NCBI RefSeq assembly: GCF_033568475.1
Contig: NC_133120.1
Coordinates: 91,592,151-91,656,150, forward strand
Origin: Henckelia pumila
Lineage: Eukaryota > Streptophyta > Magnoliopsida > Lamiales > Gesneriaceae
Direction of reading: 5' to 3'
DNA length: 64,000 bases
The position numbers and the translations under genes are program-made. This document shows, one piece after another, positions 30,301 to 64,000 of this stretch (its first letter is position 1; each line of letters starts with the position of its first letter). The notes beneath the pieces were generated by a model. The model searched no databases and was not told where the DNA came from. It was given only the letters and a program-made list of their open reading frames with translations.

Positions 30301-31616
30301 AACGTGTAAGACGTTATGAAGCTTTGGAAACCCTTCCACATTGAGTGTTTCTTTGCCAATAATTCTTCCCTTTGCACCACCTCCGTAGGTCACTCTACCA
30401 TCATTTTGTTCAATGTAGTCCGTGAGATGATCTTTCAAACCTGTCATGTGCCGAGAGCTTCCACTATCAAAATACCAATTACCTGCAGTGTTAGCTTTCA
30501 AGGAAGTATAAATAACAAAACATCTAACATGAGGCTTTTGTATCCAAACTTTCTTCATAGTGGGCCTCTTTCTGCCAGTGTTGCTCTTGGTGTTGGACAA
30601 CACGGAGGGTAACACTTGCTTAGATTCCCACAAAACATAGTCATTTTTAAGCTTACGACAAAAAGGCCTGATATGACCAGATTTGAGACAATAATGACAT
30701 ACAAAAGGACGCTTCCATTGTTTTTGCTTAGGAACAGAAACATCCTTTTCAACAATGAGTTTCTTACCTTTCGAAGTAGTTGAAGGATGGTTCAAGGAAT
30801 CATTACCTTCCTTCACAAACACTGGTGTTTTGGAACATTCACCAGTTTCAAAAACACTTTCTTTAAAACCAAGTCCAAACTTATCATTCTTACCCATAGT
30901 CAAAATGGAATCAAGTTTGCTCGAACTGGAATTAAATTTATCAAGTGTAGTTTTTGCTCTTTCAAGTTCAGAATTCAGCAACCCTAATTCCAGATCTTTC
31001 TTACTCATGAGAATTTCCAGTCTAGCCACAGCAGCTTTCAATTCAGTATTCTCTTTTATAAGAGTTGTGTTCAACTGATTCCTCTTGTTCCAATCACTGT
31101 ATAACTCTTCATAGAGTTTTTGAATACCTTCCAGAGTATAAGGATCAGCTACCTGTTCTTCATGATTGCTGGAATTGTCAAGGTTAGAAGCAACAAAACA
31201 AACAGATTTTTGAACATTGTTGCGTCCAGGTGTTGCAACACCGGAGCCAACACCGAGAGGATTAATCTGAAAATTTTTCTTACTCTCCAGTAAAGCAGTA
31301 AAAGATATGAGATCTTCCTGTTCAACCTTTTCTTGTTCTTCTTCAGAATCATCATCACTCAGAGAAACATTCATACCTTTTCGAAGGCGATTTGCGCATT
31401 CATAAGCATAGTGGCCATATCCCTTACATTCCCTGCATTGAACATTATCAAAATTTTTGCTTGAGGACTGATTCTTACCTTTATACCTTTGACGAGGTCC
31501 TCGAGTAGCAGCAGGTTTTTGAGGTTTCTCTGACGTAGGCAGTCTAGGAAACTTTGAGGGTTGTGCACTTTTCACATCCTTCTTTTCTTTCATTACCTTG
31601 AGATAATCAGTAAATT
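27359..31616 (-). pseudogene. Sirevirus gag 3' part and pol region (fossil)
   Basis: Minus-strand coding remains of the element's polyprotein, right to left. They are two CCHC zinc knuckles ([14 protein letters not shown] and [14 protein letters not shown]), a protease with [13 protein letters not shown], an integrase with an HxH/CxxC zinc finger near [12 protein letters not shown] and catalytic blocks around [10 protein letters not shown] and [12 protein letters not shown], a reverse transcriptase with [11 protein letters not shown] and [11 protein letters not shown], and RNase H with SDADWAGDVNDRKSTTGG. All are Ty1/copia in order and kind. The region is broken in a few places and is not expected to give a full polyprotein. 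Confidence 0.88.
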
Positions 31617-34508: not shown

Positions 34509-35344
34509 TGAAAGAAATGGTGTACGTGGTTGTTATGTAAAATAAGGTAGTGTTGTCGTTTGTGTTATAACACCACAGACAACACAGTGCAACGGAAATT
34601 TAAAGCGTAAATAAAAACACAAGTAAATAATTTTGCACGAGTATAAAACTCATGCGGGTGCCTTAGGGCTAAATATCACTAGTAAACGTAAGAATAGTCT
34701 TACAAAGTAATCCTAGTGATTTTACGAAAAGTCATTAAATCCTAAATTTCTCAACGAGTTGAGAAATCAAACTTGCATCCTAAAATACAATAAGAGTATA
34801 AAAGAAATTGGATGCAACTCCCGTAGCCTAAATTGAAGAGACAGAAAATATCTTCAACAACACAGTTCCCACAGTGTTGTCTCTGATGTCTTCAACACGA
34901 ACGGTGACACGGGGACATGCAACAACGATGGTTGCAAACTTTGCTTCAGAATTCTTCAAGATCTTCATCGAATTCTTCAGAGTATGCGCAGAGTATTTTT
35001 CGTCTGAAGCTCTCACTTTTCTTGTGCGTGGAAATCTCCTTTTATAGATAAGCATCCAAATCTTGAAGATTGCCTTAGATAGAGTCCTACATAAATAAGA
35101 AAACTAGTTTTAGTAGGAAATAAACTCTATCAAATCTTATAAATCAAATCTTGATAATATCGAATTATATTATGTCAAATAATCACCTTATCAAGATCTA
35201 ATTTAAACTTTGGCAAATATATCATTAACATATTCGAAAATATACACTCAATATTTACTAAATATCCTATCTTATTTAGAAAGCAAAATCTTATAATTTC
35301 CAATTAATTAAGGCCGAAATATTCAAGAAATAAAATTCCTTTCA
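34509..35344 (-). repeat. Sirevirus 5' LTR
   Basis: The right LTR on the plus strand. It is followed inward by the Met-tRNA primer-binding site, which fixes the minus orientation of the element. Confidence 0.95.
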
Positions 35345-41607: not shown

Positions 41608-42014
41608 GCACCCAAAGTTGAAACCACATTCCATTAATCGTTAACCATATCTTTTCACTGGACCCTATCTAGCTCCTGTATTAACATTGGTACGTGAGTC
41701 TCTGCTTGAACTCGTTCTTCTATTTTATTCATATTTTGATTGAAAAATTATCCAAAAGAGAACTCCAATAAGTGAGAGTATTAGTTTAATTTTTTCATAA
41801 ATGTTCACTCTTACATATATCTCTGTGTGTGTGTGTGCGTTTTGTAAATGCTTTTCTTTTGAAGCTAGCCTAGCTCTATAAATGCTTTTCTTTAACAAAT
41901 AGGTTTATTCAAGTGCGTGCGTGTCCATATATGATCTTGTCCTAAAATAGTTCAAACAACATCAATCGTGTTTCTATCATTTTTTTGCAGATTGATCGAG
42001 TTCATACCCCTGCA

Positions 42015-43470
42015 ATGGTCAACTTTTCAAGAATATCCCGGCAGCTGTTACATCTGCCAATCCTCCTTCTTGTCCTAGCTTCAGCAGTACATAACTCACA
42101 AGCCAAAACCAAGAATGATCAAATCAAAACCAAAGTGTACTACTCCCCAAAAATCGAGTTGGAACCAGGCATGGTCTCCAACAAAAACTACCCCAGCATG
42201 GATTTCCCCCAAGGCCACGTTGCCATCAAGAGCTTCGAAGCCGAGGTAGTCGACCAAGATTACAAATCGGTCCCTCTCACCCAAGTTTATCTACACCATT
42301 GGATCGTCGACAAATACTTCCAACCCACCCTAAACGCCAGCCTCCCCCCCATTTTCGGAAACATCAGTGGTGTGTGCAGCGGTAATGCTCTCATACAGTA
42401 CTTTGGATCCGGGTCTGAGACGAGAAGGACCCGGAGCGACGTGCCGGACCCTTACGGGATAGTCGTCGGCAATCCGTCGGATGCTCCCGCCGGGTACGTG
42501 GAGAAATGGCTGCTCAACGTGCACGTTATCGACACACGAGACGTGGTGGATAAACTAGGATGTCTCGAGTGTACGTGCGAGCTGTACAACGTGACGAGGG
42601 ACGGAGACGGCCAGCCCTTGCCGCCGGATTACTACGGCGGCTTGAGCTGTTGCCTGGATGGGACTAGGTGTAGGATGGAGCAAGGGTACAACAAGCTGGA
42701 TGGGAATGTAACGTATTACTTGAAGTATACGGTGAAGTATTTGGAATGGGATCCGTACATCGTGCCGGTTAGAGTCTTTGTTCTTGATGCAACGGATATC
42801 GTAACAAAGACCAACAATTCACAAGGGATCGTTTATCAACATGATTGTCAGGTACTAATCAATATTCAAGCATATATTGCATTAATTATATCCATGTCAT
42901 ATTATAATAATATTTGTTTCAAAAATATATATATATATCATATATTTTGCTCATGCTGCAGGTTGAGTATCAAGTGAAATCTTGCAACCCCAGAAGTATT
43001 GATTTGGCTAAGAAATTTTGCATCGACACAAAATCCGTGAGTTTTACGTTACCAAAAGGGGGCAATCTGGTATATGGAGTTGGGCATCAGCATGTTGGAG
43101 GCGTGGGTATTGCCCTTTATGGACAAGTAAGTATATATTAGTATAGACCTTTTTTAATTTGTGATCATGAAATTCATATATATATATATAGCAAACCATA
43201 TATATTGATTTAAAATAATAAATTAATGGATGGATCCTGCTGCAGGGAGGAAGAAATATATGTACGTCGATTCCAAGATACGGGACAGGAAAACGTGATG
43301 AACCTGGAAACGAATTTGGGTACGTTGTGGGATTTTCAACATGTTACCCAAAGCGAGGCTCGGTCAAAATTAGTGATGGGGAGACTCTGACTCTGGTATC
43401 TAGATATAGCAGTGTGAGAAGACATGCAGGAGTCATGGGACTCTTCAACATCTTGCTTGCTGATTCATGA
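42015..43470 (+). CDS. Stress up-regulated Nod 19 family protein, paralogue A
   Basis: A 408-aa secreted protein of the Stress up-regulated Nod 19 family (SURNOD19, MtN19-like), whose biochemical role is unknown. Exons are 42015-42851, 42962-43126 and 43246-43470 (TGA), 1227 nt. A 5'UTR intron (donor at about 41691, acceptor ending 41990) precedes the ATG; the frame can be read upstream to 41985 but only by entering this intron. The N terminus MVNFSRISRQLLHLPILLLV.. is a signal peptide with likely cleavage after NSQA. Family blocks follow: TKVYYSPKIELEPGMVSNK, VYLHHWIVDKYF, RRTRSDVPDPYGIVVGNPSD, EKWLLNVHVIDTRDVVDKLG, HQHVGGVGIALYG and GFSTCYPKRGSVKISDGETL. Many Cys and several N-x-S/T sites fit an extracellular protein. 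It is nearly identical to paralogue B. Confidence 0.93.
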
Positions 43471-44689
43471 CCATTTATTTCATTATATATACCTTAGTTA
43501 ATTATTAATATTACTCGTACGTTTCAAATTATATATATCTGCGTGTGTGTGTGTGTTCTTATTTTCATTAATGGACGCTAGCTCCTGTTACACTTGCTAT
43601 TTGCTAATAAACATCGATCTTTGTTTCCAGTCAGCACATGCATAAATTCATTTTCAACATTAATCTGTGTTTCCGATCCATTTTACAGTTGTTTAATAAT
43701 TAATGTTAATTAGTTGAATCAAATGTAATGTCATTCATCTGCACTTTGTATTTAAGTACATAAATAATAAGAATATCGGATTATGGATTAATGATTATTT
43801 GTAATTTTTTTTTTTTTTTTTTTTTTGCTTGATCAATTGTTTCAAATAATCTGCTTATTGTCGTTAGCTTGGGTATCGATTAAAATTCTTATACGAGTAT
43901 ATATCATAAACTAAGCCTGCAATTATACTCTATAGTCTATATCTGTTGATCTTTCAACAAATTAAGCCCATATATACATTCGACAAAGCTGCCATATACA
44001 AAAACTATCAATTACTTTTAAGAATCTATTTTACTATTTTGCAAAAATAAATAAATATATTTTACTAAATTTTAAAATAACTTAATAATTTAATAATTAA
44101 TAGTTAAATATACTAAATAATAATCAGTAACTTAAATATTTTTAAAAATAACTAGTTATGATAAAAATCCATGAATGCGAATGATCACGTGCATGATTTG
44201 CTAATATAATTTAAACTAATGTTTTATTAGTGCGATGCACGGATTGTATCGTTTATATAACAATTTAATATTGGAGAGTATAAAAGTTTGAGTTTGCAAT
44301 TAAATAGAAGCTCGAAAACCGTGTTCTGGAAGGAAAAATTCTCACAGGAACTCCAGAACATCTAATTCTATTAAAAAATTCTGGAGTAAGCAAATCATGC
44401 AACACATCAACATTTTTCTCTGAATGAAATGTCGAATCAAAACTTAAATACAACCTTTCATTCGAATTGTTAAGTGATATCATGTATTTATTTATGAATT
44501 GAACAACATCAAGAGTCAACCTCAAGAGTCGGTGGAAGTATGTTGTATCACTTATTGTGCTACCAAACAACGGATATGTACTTTCAAAGAATGTTGTGAT
44601 AGGGTCTTCGAAATTTTTAAGCAAAAATTCATCCGGAATACCAAGATTCCCTGCAAATAGAAGTGACTTAAGCTTGAGTTTCGTATTTT
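43471..44689. other. 3' flank of SURNOD19 gene A and end of duplication copy A
   Basis: The 3' UTR (conserved AATAAACATCGATC near 43607) is followed by AT-rich DNA that matches the flank of copy B to about 44220. A 142-codon open frame at 44265-44693 (-) resembles nothing I know and lies antisense beside a decayed repeat. Confidence 0.5.
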
Positions 44690-45375
44690 TCATGATATTG
44701 TGGTCAAGTCTCTTCTGGTCACAGCAGAATCCTATGATTCAATCACCGTTGAGAAGTTTGATATCATGATTGCTATCTCTACTGGAACTCAGATCAATTG
44801 GTCAGAGGTACAGTTTAAAGTCTTTACTTGAATGATTACTATTCCTTCCATTCAATATCAGTTGTAGTCCAGATCAGTTACATTCTTAACGAGTTGAATG
44901 TACATATATATGGGTGTTTCGACTGCATTACATCCTCACAAAACACTGAATGAGCGAGCCATTAAAGCCTACAAGGCAAAGCAGTTGATTGTCTTTAAGA
45001 AAGAAAGTATGTATTCATGAGATTGAAGATCTCATTGTCCAGATAGAACAAGATAAGAATAAAGCACCAGCTAGCCACTTCACTCCAGCTAAATGGATTG
45101 TTGTACCCATGAGGAAGTGAGTAAAAATAAAGTTGTCTATCTATGAATTGGAATCAGAAGAATCAGAGTCAGATCGATTAACTTTGGCCAGCATTATTGC
45201 TTCGCCAAAAGTTTAGACCAAGATCACTTCTATAGAGTCTGGACCGACTGAGTTCAAAGACAAGGCTCCAGTACAAATGTTGAGCCTCAATTTCTCTCTA
45301 GTGCTCAAATTGCAATCAATCATGCACTACAAGCTGTCACAGATTAAGTAGAAGTTAAGATAAAGCTATTTGAAA
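44690..45375 (+). other. Decayed coding repeat, left piece
   Basis: Plus-strand translation shows patches such as FHDIVVKSLLVTAESYDSIT and FDIMIAISTGTQINWSEV. They resemble, from memory, an abundant family of predicted proteins in Gesneriaceae gene sets that is probably transposon-derived. It is broken. The CACTA element at 45379 inserted into this repeat; another piece of the same kind lies just beyond it. Confidence 0.45.
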
Positions 45376-45398
45376 AATCACTACAAGAAAAACGCAAA

Positions 45399-45710
45399 AA
45401 GACAACGGATTTTCTCCGTTGTCGTACGGGGTCTAAAACCGTTGTAACTGATGGTGTTGTCAAAACTGCGCCCCTACGACAACGGATAAAATCCGTTGTC
45501 GTTTCCCTCAAAGACAACAGATAAAATCCGTTGTCTTTGAGGGGCAACGACAACGGATTTTATCCGTTGTCGTAGATACAAATATGTTGTATTTGAAAGA
45601 AACGACAACGGATAAAATCCGTTGTCGTAGGGGCGCAGTTTTGACAACACCATCAGTTACAACAGTTTTAGACCCCCTACGACAACGGATAAAATCCGTT
45701 GTCGTTTTCT
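45399..45710. repeat. Left subterminal repeat array and large hairpin of the CACTA element
   Basis: Six or more copies of ACAACGGATAAAATCCGTTG, each itself a palindrome, are present. The whole block 45424-45695 is also one near-perfect inverted repeat: the arm GTCTAAAACCGTTGTAACTG.. pairs with ..CAGTTACAACAGTTTTAGAC. This could fold into a stem of about 130 bp. Confidence 0.85.
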
Positions 45711-45998
45711 ATATAAAAAAAATAAATAAATAAAAATTTTTATATAAATTTTAATATTATAAATAAACAAAAATTTAAAATTTCATAAATAAAATTTAAT
45801 ATACAATTTTTTAGTATTACAAATTACTCGAAATTAAAATTCTAATTCAATGCACACTACAGAAAAATGCGAAAAAAGTTCAGAAACTAAGGACTAGAGA
45901 CGTGAACAAAGCGAACATAATCTTTTGCTTCCCATCCACGTTAGTGTTCTCACACGCAGAGTATGCTGGAAATCCTTGTTCAACACCAGCGACTGCAA

Positions 45999-46094
45999 TT
46001 CAATTGATGTTGAATATTCTGCTGCACCAAATATGAGTTCTGAAGCGCAATAGTAACGAGTGAAAATGTAGGCTATGTTAGTTTCACCCTTCAC
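45999..46094 (-). pseudogene. Captured GSK3/SHAGGY-like kinase exon fragment
   Basis: Behind an acceptor TATCAG, the minus strand reads [20 protein letters not shown] then [12 protein letters not shown]. This aligns with the activation-loop exon of plant SHAGGY kinases ([20 protein letters not shown]..). The conserved Arg and Pro of the RAPE stretch are replaced (CASE). Beyond TSIE similarity continues only with small deletions that change the frame. It is a decayed fragment with no kinase activity expected. The other exons of the gene are absent. Confidence 0.75.
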
Positions 46095-46941
46095 CTGATA
46101 ATCATATAGTTTGTGGTGAGAAAAAATCATAATTGATAAGATCAAACCATTTAAGTTCACAGAGAAGATTAGTTTAATAAGAAAACATAACAAAAGTTTA
46201 ATTGGACTTAGTGGGGTAGGTTCCTGGCTCGCACTAGTTAAATTTGAAAACAAACATGCCTCAGTCATTTCCTTCGCAACAAATCAAGAACTATGTTCCA
46301 TAATACCAGCTATTCTCCAGACAACAAAAACCCAAGGCTAACATTTTTGGTGAATTAAATCAAATACCAAGTAAACCCTTTCACCCTTTTTGGTATAAGA
46401 CATGCATCACTAATTTCACTTATGACATAAGACATGCTCGGTCGAATTAACCTGATATACTGAGCCCATTAAAGCATTGTCTATATCATTTTATATGTGT
46501 CACTACAATCACTATTTCTTAAGTTGCATATTATTAGTGATTACATAATTTTTTAGAACAAACACATATATATGCTAATCAACCTGCGTGTTTATCGTAC
46601 TGGAATAGCTATATTTAGGTATAACATAATAATGGGTGAAAATTAATAATTAGTAGAATATAACAAATCTTATGGTTATTAAAGTCAACACTTGTATCAA
46701 CGAAATTAAACTTACTCAATATAGCTTCTTGCATATTACACTTAAATTTATTATTAAATCTCTCACGATTATTACAGACAAATAACTATAAGTTACTAAT
46801 GAATAAACTCTGTATAATTAGTCAGTGATATGCTGATAGTCTGCCAATCGAGCATAAATAGTAAGGATACAAATAAAGAGCACAAGACATCAAAAACAGA
46901 CGAGAAAAATGATTTTTGAAGTAGACAAATAAATGACCAAC

Positions 46942-47042
46942 CTCCATGACTTTAACTTCATAATCACGTAGCTGTTGTGCATATGTCATTTCCTTATTTG
47001 AAACTCTGAAAATATAAGTAGAAATCCATCCAACCGTAAGAC
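46942..47042 (-). pseudogene. Captured exon of a small single-pass membrane protein
   Basis: An exon-like block with acceptor TTTTAG and donor GTTGGT reads GLTVGWISTYIFR then VSNKEMTYAQQLRDYEVKVM. This is a hydrophobic helix followed by a charged helix, as in a small uncharacterised plant membrane protein family I recall but cannot name. It sits 55 bp from the preceding ArfGAP exon on the same strand, too close to be an original gene neighbour. Confidence 0.6.
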
Positions 47043-47097
47043 CTAAAACCATAATCATATATCACCTCACAAAACCAAGATAGTCGATCTAACATAC

Positions 47098-47758
47098 TGA
47101 TTTTTGTGACGAAGCTGAAGATCGAAAACTATCCATGATCTTCCTGGATAAACTTGCTTGCAAAGAATGCTTTTTTGAGGCACCTGACATTATACGCAGG
47201 CTTGGTTTTAGAAATTCTTGAAGCTCATATTTAGACCTACAACATACAAGTCAAGAATTGTAAATCAAGTGTTTAGCCTCGTGTTAATTTTTGGTCTTAC
47301 AGGTGGGGTAAAGTGACAAGTTCTGTAAATAACAAAAATAAAAAAGAAACAACAATTGGTCTTCATCTCAATAAAAAAACGGTCACCAATTAACAATTAA
47401 ACCCACCTGATAAATCTTGAACGCTCTTCATGGGCAGCGTCTAGTCCAGGTTTTGACACTCCTTCAGGAATATAAGCCTCGTAAATAGAATTTGCCGACG
47501 CATTTCCACCAACCTCCATCATCGCATCAATTTAATCATCAGAACATTCATCTAATGTCACGGACAAAACCTGTAGGATAGAAATTACGAGGTGAAAACA
47601 AAAGGAATCAAAGACATTAGCAGAGACTGAATGGGGCCCTTCAGAGGTTAGGGTAAAAATCTCGTAAACGAGTGTCAATCACCTTAGAAATATGAGTGCC
47701 AAGGCTTCTGTGAACTCCGCAGCACTTCAAGCATATAAACACTCCAATATTTGCGGAC
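47098..47758 (-). pseudogene. Captured AGD12-type ArfGAP exons
   Basis: Three consecutive exons of an AGD12/ZAC-like ADP-ribosylation-factor GTPase-activating protein: 47758-47683 ([25 protein letters not shown]), 47570-47407 (VLSVTLDECSDD.. and GGNASANSIYEAYIPEGVSK) and 47236-47098 (SKYELQEFLKPSLRIMSGAS..). Intron borders are preserved. The 5' exon with the first two zinc-finger cysteines and the whole C2 domain are missing. Exon 2 carries a nonsense codon where the family has Glu (DD-stop-IDAM) and a Trp to Cys change. It cannot make a working ArfGAP. An undecayed parental copy should exist elsewhere in the genome. Confidence 0.88.
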
Positions 47759-48138
47759 CTGAAGGGGGAAAAGAATAATTGATCGGACCATAACCAGGAA
47801 CAAATGAATTCTCTTCGAAAGTTTTTAGATATCTTCGTCTCCATTCCATCATCACTCTTTTAAAAGCATGACGCTCCTTTCTAGCCAGAACTTTTTGTTT
47901 TATTTTTGTTTAAAACAAGCTATCACAACAAATACAGGGACGAAAACCACTTAATCTGGTGTCTGTGATCGCTGATAAAGGGCAAACGCGAGCACCTTGA
48001 ATCTGTAAGGCCACATCTATGGGGAGGCCAATAACTACATATTTTTTAATAAAATCAATATCAATAATTTTGAGTCGAAGTCGTCTCCATCTTTAAGCCT
48101 CACAACAAAAATTCGGATAATAATGACATATGCTATAT

Positions 48139-48362
48139 TTTCTCCTAAGGATTGACAGGAATATAAACAAGTATTCGAGAATGGAATAGAAGTATTTAGT
48201 AACTAAAATCACCTGGCATTGTTGACCTGATGAAACTTAATCCAGTAAATTTTCTCCTAAGGATTGACATGAATATAAACAAGTATTCGAGAATGGAATA
48301 GAAGTATTTAGTAACTAAAATCACCTGGCATTGTTGACCTGATGAAACTTAATCCAGTAAAC
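48139..48362. repeat. 112-bp tandem duplication across an RBM48 exon-intron border
   Basis: Two copies (48139-48250 and 48251-48362) are identical at all but about one base. Each holds the last 30-odd bases of captured RBM48 exon 3 plus the splice donor and part of the next intron, so the donor GTGATT occurs twice, 112 bp apart. The near identity shows a recent local duplication. Confidence 0.9.
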
Positions 48363-48826
48363 ATCAGTAAATGACTCGCACTCTTCATCATCCATTGGCT
48401 TACATCTGAACAAAACACACCAAAATAATCAAAATATTAATCAATTACTGATACTAAAATTCTGCTTCCACAGAATAAACCTATATTTTTTAGGTGATAA
48501 CTGACACCAATAAACCCCAAGCACAACAAGATGAATTCTATGGGGAAATAAAGAATAAAAAGAAAACATGATTCAGAAACTGCCCAATTTCCAATTATTA
48601 ATAGTGAAACATGCATCCATGTTAAATATAGGATGATTAACAAGCACTCACTCTTCAAATTTGCCATAGGTAGAGAATAAATTTAATAACTCATCACCGC
48701 AGCCAAGCTCCGGAACGTTTCTCACAATCAAATATCTGCAGTAAAAGTATTTTGATACCCAATTATTACTTGAGTAAATCCAAAACTAAAACAGAATGAA
48801 TTTATGGGGAATAAAAAGTTAGTCAC

Positions 48827-50280
48827 TGTAGTAACCCAGATACCATTTTAAGATAATAATATGTTAAACATGATTAAGGGTTGGTATTTAACCAATTTCG
48901 GAGTGTTATTGGACTTCAGAAGTAAAATTTGGGCTTTTTCATTTTGGGCCGGATAGTAAGTTCCGATCCCGGATAGTAAGCTCTGATCCCGGATAGTAAG
49001 CTCCGATCGGAACGGAAGCTCCGATCCTGGAACGGAAGTTCCGATCCCCAGCTGTCAAAAATGATCGATGACTCAGTCGCGAGTTTTGACAAGTGTCGGT
49101 CATAGAGCAGATCGGAAGCTCCGATCGTAGATCGGAAGTTCCGATCCTGGCGTGGCAGACATGCACGCAATGAGCTGGATCGGAAGCTCCGATCCCGAAA
49201 TCGGAAGTTCCGATCCTGGCCGAGAAATTTGGCTATAAATAGGGCCGTTCAGAGTTCATTTTTAATTACGAATTCCCGAGTTTCCTTCTTCAGTTATATA
49301 GTGTGAGATATACACTTGAGGGCCCTATCGGTTATAATAGAGGTTCTGGAATAACCAAGGTGTGGTTATAGTCATCCGGGACTAGCAACTCCAAAGGGCT
49401 AACTACGGACGAAGGTATGGTTCGGGAATCTATTTAAGTTTTGGGAGTACTTATTAGCTTAGTTAAGGCTTATAGAATTTATGTAGTGATACGGTGAACT
49501 TTTGAATATAGGCTTGGAACCTAGGATCCTATTATACTTGAACTAGCCTAGAGGTACGTACACATTGACTGAGATTGCCAGCGAGTATACATGTTTATAT
49601 GTTGCATTTATTTGGCATTATTATATGGCATGAGATATGATTTACCATTTTATATATTCATATGTCATGTGCATATACACATTGAGCCTATACCTTGTTA
49701 TACCTGACTATAGAGCCGCTCAGCTCTATACTCGATAGTCTGTCACTGAGAGTACCGCGACGGCGGGGGCATTTATGTCTGTCTACTATGGTGTACTAGA
49801 CGAGTGTGGTTGCACCCAGAGGTTGATCCGTGCGGTGGCAGCACTCATATGGCGCCGGTTCTGAGCATGACTTTTCAGATGACCCTGTACCAGTCATCAT
49901 GTTGCATGCATTATATACATATATTTACTCATGTCTATATACTGGGCGTAGCGCTCACGTCCTAGTTGTTATCTTGGACACCCTATTCCATGGGGCAGGT
50001 CGCAGGATGGACGGAGCTGGTAGTTCAAGGCAGGACTAGGGAGCAGGAGCTTTGAAAGTTTTTATACAGCACGATTTATTAGCTGTATAATGTTTACTTT
50101 TAAGAATTTTGATATGGTTGTATCACTACAGATTTAAGCCTGGATTATATTACTAAGCTGATATGTAAATTATGGATTATGTTTCCGCACGTTTTTACTC
50201 TGTTAAGTTTTTTGCTGTATTAAGTTTAATGCATGCTATTAGTTGCCAGTAAGTAGGTGATACCATGCAGGGTCACTACA
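48827..50280 (+). repeat. Ty3 element 5' LTR
   Basis: 1454 bp. It contains a 20-bp tandem array (GGATAGTAAGCTCCGATCCC type) and GATCGGAAGCTCCGATC palindromes at about 48952-49215, followed by GGCTATAAATAGGGCC, a likely TATA region, at about 49230. Confidence 0.93.
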
Positions 50281-53200
50281 TTTTTGGTATCAGAGCATGC
50301 ATAGATTTTGGGATTAGTACTTGGGATTTAGTTTAGTCTTGAGTAATTCTTGCGCATTTGGGATTTTAATGTGCAATTCTTTTCAGGATATGGCTGACGA
50401 GAGTCACGGTAGTGTTGGCCAGGGAGGTGGTCATCATCATCGTCGCCATCATCATCAGGATGATCAACATCGTCCTCATGAGGGTCGACGTCGCTATACT
50501 ATTAATAAGTTTATGCAGGTAGGACCGAAACCCTTAGTGGGAGGCGAGAATCCTGAACAAGCTAGAAGCTGGATGTCTAAACTTGAGAGCACGTTCCGAG
50601 CTTTTGAGTGTACTGAGGAGCAGAAACTGGAAGTTCTAGAATTCGTTCTAGAGGATAGAGCACGTTTTTGGTGGGTTGCCAAGGTTGCTCAGGCACGTAC
50701 TGAGAGAGGATAGGTGACTTGGGGGGATTTCTGTCGGGAGTTTCAGAAATTGTATTTTCCTCCGGCTGTTCGCCAAGCACGATCTATGGAGTTGCTTACT
50801 TTGAGGCAAGGATCAATGACTATTGATCAGTATCAACAGCGATTTCTTGATCTGCTACCTTTCAGTCCTCATATCAATGAGAGTGATGCGTCGAAATATG
50901 ATATCTTTTTACAAGGCCTGAACCAAGATATCTACTCTCAGGTTGTCGTCTGTGATGACCCGGTATCTTATGAGACTTTGGTGAACCGTTGCCGTCTTGT
51001 GGAGACCAGCAACAGGCGTGGACAGTTGATGATGCCAGCACAGCCTAGTGGATTTATTGAGCCTCGAGCTCAATCTGTTGTGTCATCTGTACCTACGTCT
51101 TCTTCTACTCCTACTACTTCGTCTGGTTCTCGTGGTTCACGAGGTACTTTCCGCTTTGGGAAGAAGAAGAAGAGGGAGGAGTTTTGTAGCCACTGTGGTG
51201 GGAAGCATCCTGCAGCTTCATGTCGGAGAGCTACTGGGGCTTGTTATATTTGTGGTCAGCAGGGACATCTGCGGAGAGATTGTCCTCAGCGCATGGGTTC
51301 TGCTAGTGGATCGGGATCCCAGGTTGGATCTCAGGCTTCTACTTTTCCACGTCAGCAGCCAGCACCACAGAGTTCTTCTGGTTATCGTCCCCAGACTCAA
51401 GGGCAAGTGTTTGCTCTGTCTCAGGAGCAGGCTACTGAGGGAAGCGATCGCATGTTGGCAGGTAACTTCTTGTTATGTGGTATTCCTGCACTTGTATTAA
51501 TTGATACGGGAGCATCGCATTCCTTTATTTCTAGTCGCTTCGTTAAGAGACATAGATTACCTTATGTATCATTAGATATGGATTTAGTTGTATCTACTCC
51601 ATTGGAGCAGGAGGTAGTAACTAAGCGTCTAGTGATGGGTTGCCTTCTGGAATTTGAGGGTAATGTGTTATCGGCTAATTTGATGATATTAGCGATGACG
51701 GATTTTGATTGTATTTTGGGAATAGATATGCTGACTTTGTATCACGCTACTGTGGATTGTTATCAGCGTTTGGTACAGTTTCATCCCGTTGAGGGTGATA
51801 GCTGGTACTTTTATGGTGAGGGTGCGCGACCTCCGATGCCACTTGTTTCGGCTCTGAAGGCATGTCATGTCTTGGAGTCAGGTGGGGAGGGCTACCTCAT
51901 CTATGCAGTTGATATGTCCATGAGTAGTACGGGTATTGATCAGCTACCGGTTGTCAACGAGTTTCCTGACGTATTCCCTGATGAGATTCCTGGTTTTCCT
52001 CCGGTTCGAGAGGTTGAATTTGGTATTGATCTAGTACCAGGAACTACGCCTATATCCCGAGTACCTTATCGTCTGGCACCGTCAGAGATGAGGGAATTGA
52101 AACAGCAGTTGCAAGATCTACTTGATAAGGGATATATTCGTCCGAGTGTTTCTTCGTAGGGAGCACCTGTTTTGTTTGTCAAGAAAAAAGATGGATCGAT
52201 GCGATTATGTATTGATTACAGGCAATTGAATCGTGTCACCATCAAGAATAAGTATCCTTTGCCGCGGATTGATGATCTGTTCGATCAACTACAGGGTACT
52301 TCTGTTTATTCAAAGATAGATCTGAGATCTGGATACCATCAGATGCGGGTACGAGACTCAGATATATCTACGACTGCTTTCAGGACCAGATACGGGCATT
52401 ATGAGTTTCTGGTGATGCCATTCGGTTTGACGAATGCACCGGCAGTCTTTATGAATCTGATGAATCAGATATTTCGAGATTATCTGGATAGATTTGTCAT
52501 CGTCTTTATAGATGATATTCTTGTTTATTCTCATGACAAGGATGAGCATGCACAACATTTGAGGATTGTTCTACAGACGTTACGAGATAAGCAGCTATAT
52601 GCGAAATTGAGCAAGTGTGAATTCTGGCTTGATCGGGTAGTATTTCTCGGTCATGTGATTTCGAGTGAAGGGATATCTGTTGATCCTAGTAAGATAGAGG
52701 CAGTGCTGAACTGGTCTCGTCCGACGACGGTTGCTGAGATTCGTAGTTTCTTGGGTCTAGCGGGATATTACCGTCGGTTCATCGAGAATTTTTCACAGTT
52801 GGCCAGGCCTTTGACTCAGCTTACTCGGAAAGATGTTACCTTCATTTGGTCCTCGGATTGTGAGGAGTCATTTCACGAGCTGCGTAGACGTCTTACTATT
52901 GCACCTGTGCTAGCTCTACCTTCTGGATCAGGAGGTTATGTTGTCTATACTGATACCTCTGGTCATGGGTTAGGATGTGTTTTGACACAGCATGGATATG
53001 TTATTGCCTATGCTTCTCGACAGTTGAAGTCGCATGAGAGTAATTATCCAGTGCATGATCTCGAGTTAGCCACCATTGTATTTGCGCTCAAGATTTGGAG
53101 ACATTATCTTTATGGCGAAAAATTTGAGATATTTACGGATCACAAGAGTTTGAAGTATTTATTCACTCAGGCAGAGTTGAATATGCGACAGAGACGCTGG

Positions 53201-54969
53201 ATGGATCTCTTGAAGGATTATGATTGTGAAATCAAATATCATCCAGGTTCTGCTAATCTTACTGCTGATGCCTTGAGTCGGCAGGTGAGACTGTCTGCAC
53301 TTCAGACTAATGAAATATCTCATATGATTCAAGAATGCTGTTCATTGAGTTTTACGCTCAAGCACAAGAAAGGGAGGAATGGGATTCATTTGTATACTAT
53401 TCTATCTGAGCCGGTATTGTATTCTCGGATAAGAGATGCTCAGATATCTGATGTTAAGACTCAGCGATTGGCACGTCTAGCCAATGGAGTTAATACATCT
53501 GGATTCCATTTTCAGGCAGATGGTTTATTGTGCCTATCCAATAGAGTGGTTGTACCTAATGTTGCGGAGCTCAGGAACAATATTCTATCTCAAGCTCACA
53601 GGAGTCGATTATCAGTTCATCCTGGAAGTATGAAAATGTATAAGGACTTGCGAACTAGATTCTGGTGGAAGGGAATGAAGCGAAGTGTTTATCAGTTTGT
53701 TTCGAGATGTTTGATTTGTCAACAGGTCAAGGCTGAACATCGACGACCAGGTGGATTACTGCAGAATCTTGAGATTCCCGAATGGAAGTGGGAGCACGTA
53801 ACTATGGATTTTGTCACCCACTTACCTATGACGTCACGTCAGTGTGATGCTATCTGGGTCGTTGTTGACCGTTTGACGAAATCAGCACATTTCATTCCTT
53901 ATAACCGGGAATATTCTTATGATCGCATGACACGTTTATACATCCAGGAGATTGTGCGATTACATGGGATTCCAGTGAGTATTGTCAGTGATAGAGATCC
54001 GCGATTTACTTCACGTTTTTGGGGTAGTTTTCAGCAGGCGTTGGGTACCACTCTGAGTTTGAGCACTGCGTATCATCCGGAGACTGATGGGCAGTCAGAG
54101 CGCACTATTCGTACGCTGGAGGATATGCTACGTTCTTCTGTCATGGATTTTGGTTTATCTTGGCAGGATCAGTTACCTTTGATTGAATTTGCCTACAATA
54201 ACAGTTATCATCGTAGTATTGATATGGCACCTTTCGAGGCATTGTATGGTCGACGGTGTCGTACTCCGTTATTTTGAGATGAAGTTGGGGAACGGCAAGT
54301 CGAGGGTCCTGAATTGGTGCAGCAGATTAGACAAGGTAGATTTGATCAAGCATAGGATCAAAGTTGCTCAAGATAGACAAGCCAGTTATGCGAATATTCG
54401 CCGTAGGCCACTTCAGTTTGAGCCTGGTGAATATGTATTTCTCCGGATATCACCTTTCAGAAAGGTGATGAGATTCGGTGTGAAAGGCAAGTTATCTCCT
54501 CGTTATATTGGGCCTTTCCAGATATTGGAAAAGATAGGAGATGTTGCTTATCGTTTGGCTTTACCGCCATCTCTTTCCAGTATACACAATGTTTTTCATG
54601 TGTCGTTGCTTCGACAGTACATAGCTGATGAATCTCATGTGATTCAATCTACTGATATTCAGCTAGAGCCAGATCTGTCTTTTGTTGAACGACCAATCTG
54701 TATCCTAGACAGGAAGGAGAAAGTTCTTCGAAACAAGACTATACCACTTGTGATGGTACAGTGGCAGCGCCGAGGCGTTGAAGAAGCAACTTGGGAAACT
54801 GAGAGTCGTATGCGAGCAGAATATCCTGAGTTGTTTGCTTTGTATTTTTGATTATCATATAAGATGTAATTACCGTTGTTGTAATAAGACATAGTTTGAT
54901 GTTTCATATTGTTATCTTTATTGTCTTTAGATGTTATTTCGCGGACGAAATATCTAAAGGTGGGGAGAA

Positions 54970-56443
54970 TGTAGTAACCCAGATACCATTTTAAGATAAT
55001 AATATGTTAAACATGATTAAGGGTTGGTATTTAACCACTTTCGGAGTGTTATTGGACTTCAGAAGTAAAATTTGGGCTTTTTCATTTTGGGCCGGATAGT
55101 AAGTTTCGATCCCGGATAGTAAGCTCCGATCCCGGATAGTAAGCTCCGATCCCGGATAGTAAGCTCCGATCGGAACGGAAGCTCCGATCCTGGAACGGAA
55201 GTTCCGATCCCCAGCTGTAAAAAATTATCGATGACTCAGTCGCGAGTTTTGACAAGTGTCGGTCATAGAGCAGATCGGAAGCTCCGATCGTAGATCGGAA
55301 GTTCCGATCCTGGCGTGGCAGACATGCACGCAATGAGCTGGATCGGAAGCTCCGATCCCGAAATCGGAAGTTCCGATCCTGGCCGAGAAATTTGGCTATA
55401 AATAGGGCCGTTCAGAGTTCATTTTTAATTACGAATTCCCGAGTTTCCTTCTTCAGTTATATAGTGTGAGATATACACTTGAGGGCCCTATCAGTTATAA
55501 TAGAGGTTCTGGAATAACCAAGGTGTGGTTATAGTCATCCGGGACTAGCAACTCCAAAGGGCTAACTACGGACGAAGGTATGGTCCGGGAATCTATTTAA
55601 GTTTTGGGAGTACTTATTAGCTTAGTTAAGGCTTATAGAATTTATGTAGTGATACGGTGAACTTTTGAATATAGGCTTGGAACCTAGGATCCTATTATAC
55701 TTGAACTAGCCTAGAGGTTCGTACACATTGACTGAGATTGCCAGCGAGTATACATGTTTATATGTTGCATTTATTTGGCATTATTATATGGCATGAGATA
55801 TGATTTACCGTTTTATATATTCATATGTCATGTGCATATACACGTTGAGCCTATACCTTGTTATACCTGACTATAGAGCCGCTCAGCTCTATACTCGATA
55901 GTCTGTCACTGAGAGTACCGCGACGGCGGGGGCATTTATGTCTGTCTACTATGGTGTACTAGACGAGTGTGGTTGCACCCAGAGGTTGATCCGTGCGGTG
56001 GCAGCACTCATATGGCGCCGGTTCTGAGCATGACTTTTCAGATGACCCTGTACCAGTCATCATGTTGCATGCATTATATACATATGTTTACTCATGTCTA
56101 TGTACTGGGCGTAGCGCTCACGTCCTAGTTGTTATCTTGGACACCCTATTCCATGGGGCAGGTCGCAGGATGGACGGAGCTGGTAGTTCAAGGCAGGACT
56201 AGGGAGCAGGAGCTTTGAAAGTTTTTATACAGCACGATTTATTAGCTGTATAATGTTTACTTTTAAGAATTTTGATATGGTTGTATCACTACAGATTTAA
56301 GCCTGGATTATATTACTAAGCTGATATATAAATTATGGATTATGTTTCCGCACGTTTTTACTCTGTTAAGTTTTTTGCTGTATTAAGTTTAATGCATGCT
56401 ATTAGTTGCCAGTAAGTAGGTGATACCATGCAGGGTCACTACA
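54970..56443 (+). repeat. Ty3 element 3' LTR
   Basis: 1474 bp, about 99% identical to the 5' LTR. It is longer by one 20-bp unit in the array at about 55095-55170. Confidence 0.93.
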
Positions 56444-56934
56444 GTCACAAACTTGTATTCATCACAAACTGTATACACTCGAACGGCAGGAACCTCATCT
56501 TTGTATTTAGGCATTTTCTTACCTAATCACGCCTAAAAAATCCCCAATCGCCTTTCGTCAAATTTTTTCCTTAAAAAAAAGAGAGGAATACAAGTGGACC
56601 TAGAGATCGGGAGCTTGGCTGGAGACATGAGCCTGTACTTAGCTCCATTGCAAGATCCACCTATGCCGCCGGGTAAAGTCGTATCCGGAGCCGCCGCCTG
56701 GAAAATGCTCGGGAGTGAAAGAGTGACCGAATGCCTTCCATCATCGATCCTTCTTCTACAACCGCTCTCGATCTGAAGTCGGCTAGAGTGCTATGGCAGC
56801 TAGGGTTTGATAATGGATGGGTGAGAGCGACGAGGAGAGAAACGAGAGAAGAGAGATGAAAAGAGAACGAAAGGGTGTTTCTCATTATAACATATTTAAA
56901 AAAATTTAATTTTATTAATATATAAAATAATAAT

Positions 56935-57260
56935 ACAACGACGGTTTTGTAGAATCCGTTGTCATAGGCCATAAAAAACACGCTCAAAGACAACGGATTT
57001 TAAAATCTGTTGTCGTAGGCCATAATCCGTTGTCGTATGACCATAAAAAAACGCCCATCGACAACGAATTTTAATATCCGTTGTCGTAGGCCATAAAAAA
57101 AGCGCTAATAAAAAACAGATTTTAAAATCCATTGTCGTAGATCATAATCTGTTGTCGTTCTTTAACAAAATAAGGCAAACGACAACGGATTTTAATAAAT
57201 CCGTTGTGAAAGCTCATGAGACAACGGTTTTGTGACAAAACCGTTGTCGTTTAGACGTTG
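56935..57260. repeat. Right subterminal repeat array of the CACTA element
   Basis: Diverged copies of GACAACGGATTTTAAAATC and CCGTTGTCGTAGGCCAT occur every 40-60 bp in both orientations. They match the motif of the left array but without the large perfect hairpin. Confidence 0.85.
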
Positions 57261-57287
57261 TTGTACATCAAATTTGTTGTAGTGAAT

Positions 57288-58192
57288 GGGTATAACACAT
57301 AACAAAGACACATTTCTCAAACTTTCGATCCTGGAAGATGCTCACAAAATTGGCAAATCTTGAGCAAAAGATCTTAGAATGGGCTGAAACCAAAGGCATA
57401 TCTCAATCTCTTCAAATAAAAGAATTCAATGCTGCAAAGATGAAGGAGGGTATGTTACGACAACTTCTGCGATACATGCGAGCTCAATATAATCCTCGCA
57501 GTCCAAATGCTTTTGACCTCTGCTGTGATCATTCAGATTGACTGCCCAGACTATGCGTCGGGATCTAAATTTGGATACCCCTGAAGAACAGTTTGACTAC
57601 AATAAATCTGTAGATCAATTCTCTGCACCATATCAATTTGATCCAGATACTGCTAATGTTCTAGTTGAACCCATTCCAAAACAAACTTCTGAACATGAAT
57701 ATATTCCAAATCAAGACAAGATTACTGTTGCTGAATAGATAGAAATGATAAATTTTCAGCCATATCGATTTGATCAACTTTCCGATCATTTGCCTGAATT
57801 GCCATTAATGTCAACAGATGAGATGTTGAAGACTATTGATGATATTACCTTTCCTTAGACAGATCCAATGCATGCAATTATTAATGTCATACAATCTCTA
57901 CTGAATGTAGATGTTCCATCTGAAGATAGTGTTAGGAATAAACTTGCACTGGTAGTTGTAACAAGTCCTCTCAAAACTCATCAAGAAGATATTTTAGTTG
58001 AGGATGCTGCTCTATCTTATTCATCATTAGAGCAAGATCATATTGAAATCATTGATGATATTCATGTTTTATCCTCAGTTGGTATACAAGACATCAGTGA
58101 ACATACAGTTGGTATCAGGATCAATGTCATGTGTTCGATTCTGATTGATTGCAAGGAGTATAATTATTGAAAGAGAGATTTTTGGGTGCAAT
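57288..58192 (+). other. Decayed coding repeat, right piece
   Basis: Plus-strand patches such as LEQKILEWAETKGISQSLQI, MKEGMLRQLLRYMRAQYN and DLNLDTPEEQFDYNKSVD look like the same hypothetical protein family as the piece left of the CACTA element. It is broken. A TRIM is inserted at its right end. The function is unknown and I would not call it a host gene. Confidence 0.45.
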
Positions 58193-60388: not shown

Positions 60389-60772
60389 CAGTACCCAACA
60401 TTGAAACCACATTCCATTGTGAATGAATCGTTAACCATATATCTTTCACTGGACCCTATCTTCTTCTACGCTTGGTACGTACGTCTCTGCTTCAACTCTT
60501 TCTTCTGTTTTATTCATGTTTTGATTGAGAAATTATTCAAAAACGAGAACTTCAATAAGTGAGAAAAAAAAAAAATTTAGTGTGCGTTTTAGTTTATTCA
60601 TAAACGTTCATTTATACTTGCATATATATATGTAAATGCTTTTCGTTAACAAATATATAGTTTAATATTCAAGTGCGCGCGTGTCCGTATATGATCTTGT
60701 CCTAAAATAGTCCAAATAACATATATCAATTGTGTTTCGATCATTTTTCTGCAGATTGATCGAGTTCAAATA

Positions 60773-62204
60773 ATGGTGAACTTTTCAAGAATATCCCGGC
60801 AGCTGTCATATCTGCCCATCCTCCTTCTTCTCCTAGCTTCAGCAGCACATAACTCACAAGCCAAAACCAAGAATGAAATCAAAACCAAAGTGTACTACTC
60901 CCCAAAAATCGAGTTGGAACCAGGCATGGTCTCCAACAAAAACTACCCCAGCATGGATTTCCCCCAAGGCCACGTCGCCATCAAGAGCTTCGACGCCGAG
61001 ATAGTCGACCAAGATTACAAATCGGTCCCTCTCACCCAAGTTTATCTGCACCATTGGATTGTCGACAAATACTTCCAATCCACCCTTAACGCCAGCCTCC
61101 CTCCGATTTTCGGAAACATCAGTGGTGTGTGCAGCGGTAATGCTCTCATACAGTACTTTGGATCCGGGGCTGAGACGAGAAGGACCCGGAGCGACGTTCC
61201 GGACCCTTACGGGATAGTCGTCGGCAATCCGTCGGATGCTCCCGCCGGGTACGTGGAGAAATGGCTGCTCAACGTGCACGTTATCGACACTCGAGACGTG
61301 GTGGATAAGCTAGGATGTCTCGAGTGCACGTGCGAGCTGTACAACGTGACGAGGGACGGAAACGGGCAGCCCTTGCCGCCGGATTACTACGGCGGCTTGA
61401 GCTGTTGCCTTGATGGGACTAGGTGTAGGATGGAGCAAGGGTACAACAAGCTTGGTGGGAATGTAACGTATTACTTGAAGTATACGGTGAAGTATTTGGA
61501 GTGGGATCCGACGTCCATCGTGCCGGTTAGAGTGTTTGTTCTTGATGCAACGGATATCGTGACAAAGACCAACAATTCACAAGGGATCGTTTATCAACAT
61601 GATTGTCAGGTAGCAACATACATTGATAATTTTACGCATAATGAATGCATATAATATACATATGTTATATTATATAACATATTGTACTCATGCAGGTTGA
61701 GTATCAAGTGAAATCTTGCTCCAACAGCACTATTGATTTGGCTAAGAATCGTTGCATCGACACAAAATCCGTGAGTTTTACTTTACCAAAAGGCGGCAAT
61801 CTGGTATTTGGATTTGGGCACCAGCATGTAGGAGGCGTGGGTATTGCCCTCTATGGACAAGTATGTATTAATTAGTATATATAGACCTTTTAATTTTCTG
61901 ATGAAATTCATATATATAGCAAACCATGCATATAATTATATTATTGATTTAAAATATATATGAATGGATCCTGCTGCAGGGAGGAAGAAATATATGTACG
62001 TCGATTCCAAAATACGGGACTGGAAAACGTGATGAGCCTGGAAACGAATTTGGGTACGTTGTGGGATTTTCAACATGTTACCCAAAGCGAGGCTCGGTCA
62101 AAATTAGTGATGGGGAGACTCTGACTCTGGTGTCTAGATACAGCAGCGTGAGAAAACATGCAGGAGTCATGGGACTCTTCAACATCTATCTTGCTGATTC
62201 ATGA
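60773..62204 (+). CDS. Stress up-regulated Nod 19 family protein, paralogue B
   Basis: The second SURNOD19 copy, 408 aa, with exons 60773-61609, 61696-61860 and 61980-62204 (TGA), the same lengths as in paralogue A (837, 165, 225 nt). The 5'UTR intron is also shared (donor at about 60474, acceptor ending 60754). The signal peptide MVNFSRISRQLSYLPILLLL.. and all family blocks are intact. Length is conserved through two compensating codon changes: one codon fewer near KTKNEIKTK and one more at WDPTSIVPV. Exon 2 has SNSTIDLAKNRCID where A has NPRSIDLAKKFCID, and VFGFGHQHVGG where A has VYGVGHQHVGG. Introns differ more than exons. Both copies look functional. Confidence 0.93.
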
Positions 62205-63170
62205 CCATTTATTTAGTTATACCTTAATTAATTAATTAATTAATTCCCACAGCTACATATGTTCTTAATTATTTTCATTATTAATGGACGCTAGCTCCTG
62301 TTACACTTGCTAATAAACATCGATCTTTGTTTCGAGTCAGCACATGAATTCATTTTCATCATTAATTAATCTTTGTGTTTCCGATCCATTTTACAGTTGT
62401 TTCATAATTATAGTTGGTGGAAATGTAATGTCATTTATCTGCACTTTTTTGTTAAGGGATTATCATAAACAATAAAACCGGCTTATATATGGATTGATTA
62501 TTTGTACTTCTTCTTTTTTGCTTGATCAATTGTTTCAAATAATTTGCTCATTGTCGTTAGGGTCGCTCACTGCCCAACAAATATGTCCAACTCCATGCCC
62601 ACCATGTACAATAAATAAGTTGACCAATACAATAGGTGAGTTGACTTGTACATGGTGGACATGAAGTTGAGCATAGTTGTTGGACAACATAATAAAACAC
62701 TATATATATATATATAAATCAACAAAGCCATATATAAAAATTATTTCAACTTTTAATTATCTATTTTGCTAATTAAAATTTAAAATAACTAAATAATTAA
62801 TAGTTTAAATTATACCAAAAAATAATCAATATTTAACTATTTTAAAACACAACTAATTATGTAAAAATCCCATGCATGCGAAATATCATGTGGTTATTTA
62901 ATAGCATAATTTAAATTTGAAAGCCTAATTGTAGAAATTTTAAAGTATACTTACTCAAAAAAATAAAAAAAATTTTAAAAAATAAAAAATGTACAAAATA
63001 ATTTTTTAATTATGTAAATTTATTATATCAATATATACAATAATTTTTTTCAAACTTCTAATATATAAAATGCAACCAACATTTCTTAATTCTAAATCAG
63101 AAGCTAGCAATAAAACAATATAATAATTGCGAATACATGCATCCAGCTAAGTTACTCTTTTTCTTGTCAA
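62205..63170. other. 3' flank of SURNOD19 gene B and AT-rich spacer
   Basis: It matches the flank of gene A except where the foldback MITE sits. No gene is apparent. Confidence 0.5.
62561..62698. mobile_element. Foldback MITE, copy 2
   Basis: The same family as 21009-21150: the left arm CTGCCCAACAAATATGTCCA and inner arm CAACTCCATGCCCACCATGT pair with ACATGGTGGACATGAAGTTG and GTTGTTGGACAACATAATAA. A TA run follows. It interrupts the flank of copy B and is missing at the corresponding place in copy A. Ends are approximate. Confidence 0.65.
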
Positions 63171-63289: not shown

Positions 63290-64000
63290 TGTAACGACCC
63301 ACTGTTGTATCAAGACGGGTCTTTTCAGCGTGCTTATGTCCTCACTCACACGCACCCTGGAAAACTTCCCAGGGGGTCACCCATCCTATAATTGCCCCAA
63401 GTCAAGCACGCTTAACTTTGGAGTTCTTATGTGATGAGCTTCCGAAAAGAAGATGCACCTTCGTGATATGAGCAGTACATATGAAACCTTTTAAGCCCTC
63501 CTCAATTATGTAGTCCCATACCTACACAGTCTCAGAATCCCCTCTCATTCCGGCACAAGATCGGTTCATTCATGTCTCCCTCCGCCTAGAAGCCTACCAG
63601 GAGCCGCTCATTGTCCGTGCAACCTCTTGGCACCGGCGATCACTCCCTGCCTCTTCAGCCCCGGGCGTCACATGCCCACCAGCTTCCGCTTGGTTCGTCC
63701 CCGAACCATACCGTACTAAGAGAGGTCGGCTTTGATACCATTTGTAACGACCCACTGTATCAAGACGGGTCTTTTCAGCGTGCTTATGTCCTCACTCACA
63801 CGCACCCTGGAAAACTTCCCAGGGGGTCACCCATCCTATAATTGCCCCAAGTCAAGCACGCTTAACTTTGGAGTTCTTATGTGATGAGCTTCCGAAAAGA
63901 AGATGCACCTTCGTGATATGAGCAGTACATATGAAACCTTTTAAGCCCTCCTCAATTATGTAGTCCCATACCTACACAGTCTCAGAATCCCCTCTCATTC
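63290..64000 (-). mobile_element. Cassandra TRIM with 5S rRNA-derived LTRs (runs off the window)
   Basis: Read on the minus strand. The plus-left LTR (the element's 3' LTR) is 63290-63572, with ends TGTAACG and TTCATTCA. The interior is 63573-63742, with a polypurine tract GGCGGAGGGAGACA (reverse strand) and a Met-tRNA primer-binding site TGGTATCAAAGCC (reverse of about 63728-63740). The second LTR starts at 63743 and is cut by the window end. Each LTR holds a 5S rRNA-like segment (reverse of about 63350-63430) with the internal promoter boxes AAGTTAAGCGTGCTTG and AGGATGGGTGAC. This is diagnostic of Cassandra. The visible part looks whole, but the right flank and target duplication cannot be checked. 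Confidence 0.92.

Follow-up and report, generated by a model that had tools for sequence, protein, structure and literature searches.

A CACTA transposon of Henckelia pumila with fragments of six host gene families, probably assembled by fusion of neighboring elements

A single CACTA insertion

We analyzed a 64-kb stretch of contig NC_133120.1 of Henckelia pumila (the window; unless a contig is named, positions are those of the window). Positions 45379–57284 are a single CACTA transposon insertion with matching termini, flanked by a duplication of the target site AAT (45376–45378 and 57285–57287). The insertion carries fragments of six unrelated host gene families (RPS18, GSK3, DUF3007, AGD12, RBM48, and WRKY20), all on the minus strand, as well as a retrotransposon that arrived later. 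Without the retrotransposon it is 4284 bp long, and it is likely a non-autonomous Pack-CACTA element that grew by the fusion of neighboring elements and carries its cargo passively.

The left end (CACTACAAGAAAAACGC) starts at 45379 and the right end (...TTTGTTGTAGTG) stops at 57284. The short terminal inverted repeats (CACTACAAGAAA versus CACTACAACAAA) agree at 11 of 12 bases. Near both ends there are arrays of the subterminal motif ACAACGG/CCGTTGT, in both orientations and with inverted pairs: the left array has 12 motifs and the right array 8, together 20 of the 26 in the 64-kb window. A first-pass annotation of the window had already noticed the termini, the AAT duplication, and the arrays, and it was correct on all three. 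No transposase gene was recognized outside of the retrotransposon by reading all six frames, although not every frame was searched with profiles.

The cargo lies between two shells. The left shell (45379–45906, plus strand) consists of the CACTA terminus, the subterminal array, and an AT-rich stretch, and it is common to many elements with different cargo. Its array forms an inverted repeat with arms of 127 nt that are 91% complementary, and the shell has a predicted folding energy of −238 kcal/mol (shuffle mean, −77). The right shell (56745–57284, plus strand) consists of a leader-like stretch, an AT-rich stretch, the subterminal array, and the right CACTA terminus. We considered 56745–56870 as the leader of WRKY20 but dropped this idea because the match to the parent gene ends at the start codon.

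The left shell also contains a second CACTA-like left terminus (CACTACAGAAAAATGCGAAAAA, 45855–45876, plus strand), which appears to be a relic. A match of this quality was not found in any of 300 dinucleotide shuffles of the element. This internal terminus sits at the identical place in sister copies, within the shared left shell, so we no longer consider it to be a cargo boundary. Its recurrence at one place implies that it predates the present cargo.

The nested retrotransposon

A Ty3-type long terminal repeat (LTR) retrotransposon of 7617 bp (48827–56443, plus strand) lies in intron 1 of the RBM48 fragment and makes up 64% of 45379–57284. Thus, the first-pass annotation was right to describe this span as one Pack-CACTA but not about its size, and we reject the idea that the entire 11.9 kb is captured DNA. 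The LTRs (48827–50280 and 54970–56443) are 1454 and 1474 bp long and are flanked by a 5-bp duplication (GTCAC at 48822–48826 and 56444–56448). Between them are gag, protease, reverse transcriptase, RNase H, integrase, and a chromodomain (a weak match), in that order and with reverse transcriptase before integrase, as in Ty3/gypsy elements. The domain order, the weak chromodomain, and the long LTRs resemble Ty3/gypsy chromoviruses (type name Tekay/Del). Unlike those elements, this one is only a passenger, with frames that are interrupted by stops.

Aligned over 1454 sites, with 20 gap columns excluded, the two LTRs have 12 differences, which is a Kimura two-parameter distance (K2P) of 0.0083 and, with two plant rates, an insertion age of 0.32–0.59 million years. 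The retrotransposon is younger than the CACTA element. Nine other elements in the genome (L029–L032 and L034–L038; L numbers are our handles for loci and C numbers for contigs) have an empty site with a single GTCAC, as does the parent gene of the RBM48 fragment (L048). It landed in the window copy and in none of the nine others that we checked.

The captured gene fragments

The first-pass annotation had proposed exons of at least four unrelated host genes in one orientation: three exons of RBM48, three of AGD12, one of a small membrane protein, and one of GSK3, all on the minus strand. These assignments and the single orientation are borne out, but the count was too low, as RPS18 and WRKY20 had been missed. 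For all six fragments, the protein match reaches E = 2e-7 or better. The Pfam matches are weaker: the RRM of RBM48 falls just under the cut-off, and the GSK3, RPS18, and WRKY20 fragments have no Pfam match.

At the left edge of the cargo is a frameshifted fragment of RPS18 (uS13; 45907–45998; plant uS13 in PDB, E = 1e-10) with the acceptor TTGCAG. The stretch first taken as the end of the GSK3 exon runs on into the start of RPS18. The GSK3 kinase fragment (45999–46184; GSK3 in PDB, E = 2e-7) comprises an exon (45999–46094), whose 3' side is cut off, and the intron upstream of it. Both fragments keep only an acceptor; they are cut inside exons, with no donor at the end.

The next 757 bp of the cargo (46185–46941) have no assigned origin. 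Within them, 46217–46377 (161 bp, adjoining the GSK3 fragment) has repeats at 91–94% identity at C2:79468543, C4:114822560, C3:121399327, and C3:122010978. The stretch 46389–46771 matched only the five copies of the element with the full cargo, and from 46772 onward one further element (L035) matches too.

A small membrane protein exon with the Pfam domain DUF3007 follows (46942–47042; PF11460, E = 6e-13), and then a fragment of the ArfGAP gene AGD12 (47050–48073; PF01412, E = 1.5e-24). The AGD12 fragment includes introns and three exons (47683–47758, 47407–47570, and 47098–47236) and is 93% identical to AGD12 of Primulina eburnea. The middle exon contains an in-frame stop, and the GT of the last exon lies one base inside the exon border as first drawn.

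The RBM48 fragment (82% identity to RBM48 of Phtheirospermum; PDB 7dvq, E = 3e-11) is split by the retrotransposon. One part (48117–48826) contains exon 3 (48325–48405), exon 2 (48652–48735), and introns; the other (56444–56578) contains the start codon, exon 1 (56453–56514), and the beginning of intron 1. A tandem duplication of about 112 bp (48134–48361, minus strand) includes part of exon 3. It is single in the parent gene and in L029–L032, where the matches overlap; it therefore arose in the window copy, and we no longer read it as a trace of capture. The right edge of the cargo is a fragment of WRKY20 exon 1 that begins at the start codon (56588–56744; 79% identity to H. pumila WRKY20 over 67% of the query).

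The fragments are joined abruptly, with short unassigned fillers at 48074–48116 and 56579–56587. The first-pass annotation had stated that splice borders were kept. This is so for the exons of RBM48, AGD12, and DUF3007, which are bordered by intact AG and GT (RBM48 exon 1, which begins at ATG, is the exception), but not for GSK3 and RPS18; also, two sister copies have lost an acceptor of AGD12.

Parent genes and the age of the fragments

The first-pass annotation had recommended a BLAST search for the parental loci, which we ran against the assembly (884.7 Mb in 133 contigs). Parents or candidate parents could be placed for five of the six fragments, three by reading the locus and two by best match. 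The parent of AGD12 (L056, C3:198.91 Mb) matches 47050–48073 without interruption, at 96.6% over 1030 bp and with introns included, and it matches the remainder of AGD12 on both sides (tblastn). The parent of RBM48 (L048, C103) matches 48117–56578 except for the retrotransposon and the 112-bp duplication, and it continues into the next RBM48 exon. Because both matches run through introns, these fragments were captured from DNA, as had been proposed from the retention of introns. The parent of WRKY20 is L057 (C1:100.82 Mb), which residues 1–92 of H. pumila WRKY20 match at 100%. The candidates that we have by best match only are C4:6183293–6183478 for GSK3 (89%) and four loci on C1/C2 for RPS18 (85–89%), including C2:15.36 Mb and C1:153.1 Mb. 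As the parents and candidates are on different contigs or far apart, we reject a contiguous cluster of host genes as the source of the cargo, and the concern that the fragments might be parts of normal syntenic genes does not hold.

The fragments seem to differ in age. K2P to the parent is 0.026–0.029 for AGD12 (about 1021 bp), 0.033–0.041 for RBM48 (about 684–706 bp), and 0.125–0.175 for WRKY20 (157 bp). Judging by these comparisons, the outer fragments would be old (about 85–89% identity to their parents) and the inner ones young (96–97%). The young inner fragments are mostly intron, and half or more of the old edge fragments is coding. Since constraint on the parents would hide change in the coding edge fragments, the contrast in age is conservative.

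Copies and modular relatives

The search for copies with the same or fewer fragments, another suggestion of the first-pass annotation, used the first 1001 bases as the query and gave 82 matches from the 40 scored of 1487 candidates, so all counts are lower bounds. Among those 40, the left shell alone (about 476–534 bp) matched at 29 places. We retrieved 20 stretches, 19 of which are element loci.

In four further copies (L029–L032), the six fragments of the cargo recur in identical order, without the retrotransposon. Pairwise K2P among the five full-cargo copies is 0.015–0.022. Counting the window with the 19 element loci, both ends were recognized in 13 (L033, L034, L036, L037, L040, L041, and L042 are outside this count), and 11 of the 13 have a perfect 3-bp duplication (the window, L029, L030, L031, L032, L035, L039, and L044–L047). 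These duplications differ among the elements: AAT, ATT, GAT, CGT, CTT, CCT, ACC, GTC, TTG, CCA, and TCA. Thus, the element is an ordinary CACTA insertion with at least five full-cargo copies and with relatives that carry part of the cargo, and its mobilization as a unit, together with the host coding DNA, is what the term Pack-CACTA describes.

The relatives are modular. RPS18 and GSK3 occur with other sequence on their right in L033, L039, L040, and L042, and RBM48 and WRKY20 occur without AGD12 in L034, L036, L037, and L038. WRKY20 occurs without RBM48 in L043–L047 (just some 57 bp in L047). All six families are present in L035, where the GSK3 piece is shortened and about 1.4 kb are added, including a DUF2921 fragment. 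L034 has, besides RBM48 and WRKY20, part of RPS18 and an FKBP fragment that barely passes the Pfam cut-off. The locus L041 is fragmentary and has RPS18 and GSK3 and a short match on the WRKY20 side. AGD12 sequence is found at seven places (all seven candidates were scored): the five full copies, L035, and the parent gene on C3.

Three right-shell elements (L058, L059, and L060) have a WRKY20 piece that extends to residue 92 or 93. WRKY20 is probably an early capture of the element family. L036 and L037, which face opposite ways on C3 at a distance of about 205 kb, are 98.8% identical over 4 kb including the flank. They probably represent one insertion in a segmental duplication rather than two insertions.

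Origin and role of the cargo

We propose that the element grew stepwise. Two related elements, a carrier of RPS18 and GSK3 on the left and a carrier of RBM48 and WRKY20 on the right, would have moved as a single unit bounded by the two outer termini, which would have trapped the host DNA between them (AGD12 and DUF3007). A transposase supplied from elsewhere could then have spread the fused element. The Ty3-type retrotransposon entered the RBM48 intron of the window copy later. A survey of Pack-TYPE elements proposes the joint mobilization of neighboring elements, with decay of the internal ends and newer DNA inside (PMC8903248), and another paper restates this model (PMC13317346). The age gradient, the shared modules, and the relic internal terminus of the H. 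pumila element fit this published mode of capture. As the model predicts, new DNA is internal and the terminal parts are older and shared (DUF3007, which has no placed parent, aside), and the relic terminus lies at 45855–45876. In the 7–8.5 kb that we read around each of the AGD12 and RBM48 parents, no pair of elements was seen, and only the captured stretches match the element. Overall, we consider a fusion of neighbors with passive cargo to be the probable explanation.

That the cargo is passive is suggested by its divergence, counted per site per copy among the five full-cargo copies for eight exons, with RPS18 and WRKY20 included in the rest of the cargo. The exons (0.00773) have diverged as much as the rest of the cargo (0.00753), and the shells have diverged more (0.0148). 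Leaving out gapped exon rows, the 30 changes in codons are 7 synonymous, 21 nonsynonymous, and 2 stop, for which the neutral proportions are 0.25, 0.70, and 0.05. We therefore reject selection on a chimeric coding sequence. If RBM48 exon 3 were spliced to the first AGD12 exon, at GT/AG borders, the reading frame would continue, which has a one-in-three chance, but this chimeric frame stops after 113 codons in four copies (the window, L029, L030, and L031) and is frameshifted earlier in the fifth (L032). L035 does not have this stop and has others. The acceptor of the middle AGD12 exon is lost in L029 and L030. With the neutral pattern, the interrupted frame, and the lost acceptors, a coding use is not indicated, which weakens the suggestion of the first-pass annotation that chimeric transcripts could matter. 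The cargo is best read as passenger DNA that carries no sign of selection.

Several observations weigh against this account. None of the loci retrieved carries just the two halves next to each other, which leaves the fusion step an inference, and the mixtures of cargo in L035 and L034 leave the order of the middle events unfixed. The age gradient relies on short outer fragments (92, 185, and 157 bp) and on best-match candidates for GSK3 and RPS18, and it lacks a parent for DUF3007. When the 112-bp duplication was left in the RBM48 alignment, as at first, K for the window copy came out at 0.050. In two of the 13 elements with both ends, the triplets on the two sides do not match (L043, AAG/GAG; L038, ACG/ATG, with a mutated right end). 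Finally, the case for neutrality is a count of just 30 changes with no formal test, in an element whose shells diverge more.

A different possibility is that a single element lineage gained its cargo one fragment at a time, when gaps were repaired or templates switched in the course of excision, with no fusion. The abrupt joins and their short fillers are what this process might leave behind, and successive template switches would likewise yield fragments of differing ages. However, it does not account for the left and right modules being found separately in other elements, for an internal terminus that resembles a relic end, or for the placement of two young, long fragments inside and older ones at both edges, so we give it a minor but real chance. 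The first-pass annotation had also worried that the two termini might belong to different elements. The inner terminus at 45855 does mean that more than one end is present, but a chance composite is already refuted by the four other copies that have the same pair of ends, the same cargo, and target site duplications of their own.

Could the cargo nevertheless be expressed and useful, with a minus-strand transcript from the right shell that encodes an RBM48-AGD12 chimeric protein or acts as a regulatory RNA? All six fragments are on one strand and the RBM48-AGD12 join is in frame. Also, the fragments of the soybean element Tgm-Express1 are spliced as cassette exons (Zabala and Vodkin, 2007). 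But this seems very unlikely given the neutral exons, the stop or frameshift in all five copies, the acceptor lost in two of them, and the 7.6 kb that now lie within intron 1 of the window copy. Also, no chimeric protein stood out among the best 120 of 1129 protein matches; of these, the only one with coverage above 63% (P0065) is an ordinary ArfGAP. Alternatively, the hairpin of the left shell could give rise to small RNAs that silence the elements of the family, and the fragments could drag the parental genes into silencing. The stability of the predicted fold favors this idea, but the hairpin contains only shell sequence and no gene fragment, and we consider it unlikely.

The orientation of the cargo raises a separate question. 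If fragments were independent, six of six on the minus strand would have a two-sided probability of 0.03, and with the DUF2921 fragment of L035 and the FKBP fragment of L034, eight of eight would have a probability of 0.008, although the two extra fragments are not an unbiased sample. In a scan of sister cargo, seven of ten frames were on the minus strand, and seven of the ten had no Pfam family. We judge a polarity of capture or retention in this family to be quite unlikely. If there were one, then a step linked to transcription, such as capture from transcribed DNA, could cause the bias, or only those fragments that do not clash with transcription of the element might survive.

Surroundings of the element

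The insertion site, obtained by joining 45139–45378 to 57288–57527, resembles a degraded reading frame (on the right side, LANLEQKILEWAETKGISQ...). Its flanks have no Pfam family above the cut-off (SNAPC3, at E = 0.069, falls below). A SURNod19-type gene region is present in two copies that flank the CACTA element (41879–43867 and 60633–62560; 87% identical, same orientation), and the stretches that adjoin these copies are likewise duplicated. Elsewhere in the window, an LTR-like pair (23179–24014 and 34509–35344, 97.4% identical) surrounds a Ty1/copia-type pol frame (28054–32058, minus strand) and a frame with the Pfam domain Transposase_32 (24335–26431). At the right end of the window is a 261-bp direct repeat (63290–63550 and 63743–64000, 98.9% identical).

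Comparison with known elements

Non-autonomous CACTA elements that carry host sequences are familiar from the Tpn1 family of Ipomoea, and Pack-CACTA elements with several genes are already known as a type. The first-pass annotation had thought that this combination of fragments was undescribed. The literature that we searched, at the level of titles, does not contradict this: we found no pairing of RBM48 with CACTA and no such elements in Gesneriaceae, Primulina, or H. pumila. The novelty is limited, though, by the other multi-gene Pack-CACTAs. What we add is a resolved family with its parent genes, an apparent inward gradient of age, and cargo on one strand that is striking and nevertheless looks like passenger DNA. 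How DNA transposons acquire gene fragments is still argued. Here, one genome holds an ordered series: the outer modules are shared and apparently old, the fragments inside appear young, an internal end survives as an apparent relic, and the parents are there for comparison. This makes the fusion of neighboring elements testable by comparing copies.

The closest relative in structure is Tgm-Express1 of soybean, a 5.7-kb CACTA element that sits in the intron of a gene, carries fragments of five unrelated host genes, and gives rise to chimeric transcripts in which the introns of the fragments are spliced out (Zabala and Vodkin, 2007, PMC1947982). Both are CACTA elements with several unrelated host fragments, retained introns, and canonical splice sites. 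In contrast to the five fragments of Tgm-Express1, the H. pumila element has six families, and its five full-cargo copies, modular relatives, and parents are all found in one genome. Chimeric transcripts were demonstrated for Tgm-Express1; the H. pumila element is known from its DNA alone.

The Pack-CACTA elements of Arabidopsis and of the Pack-TYPE survey have ends of the CACTACAA type and genic DNA from several loci (PMC8903248). The H. pumila element shares the type of end, the genic DNA from several loci, the proposed mobilization with a neighbor, and the internal position of newer DNA. It differs in its relic internal terminus, in the introns of its AGD12 and RBM48 fragments, in the single orientation of its cargo, and in having an inward gradient of age that is measured against parents in the same genome.

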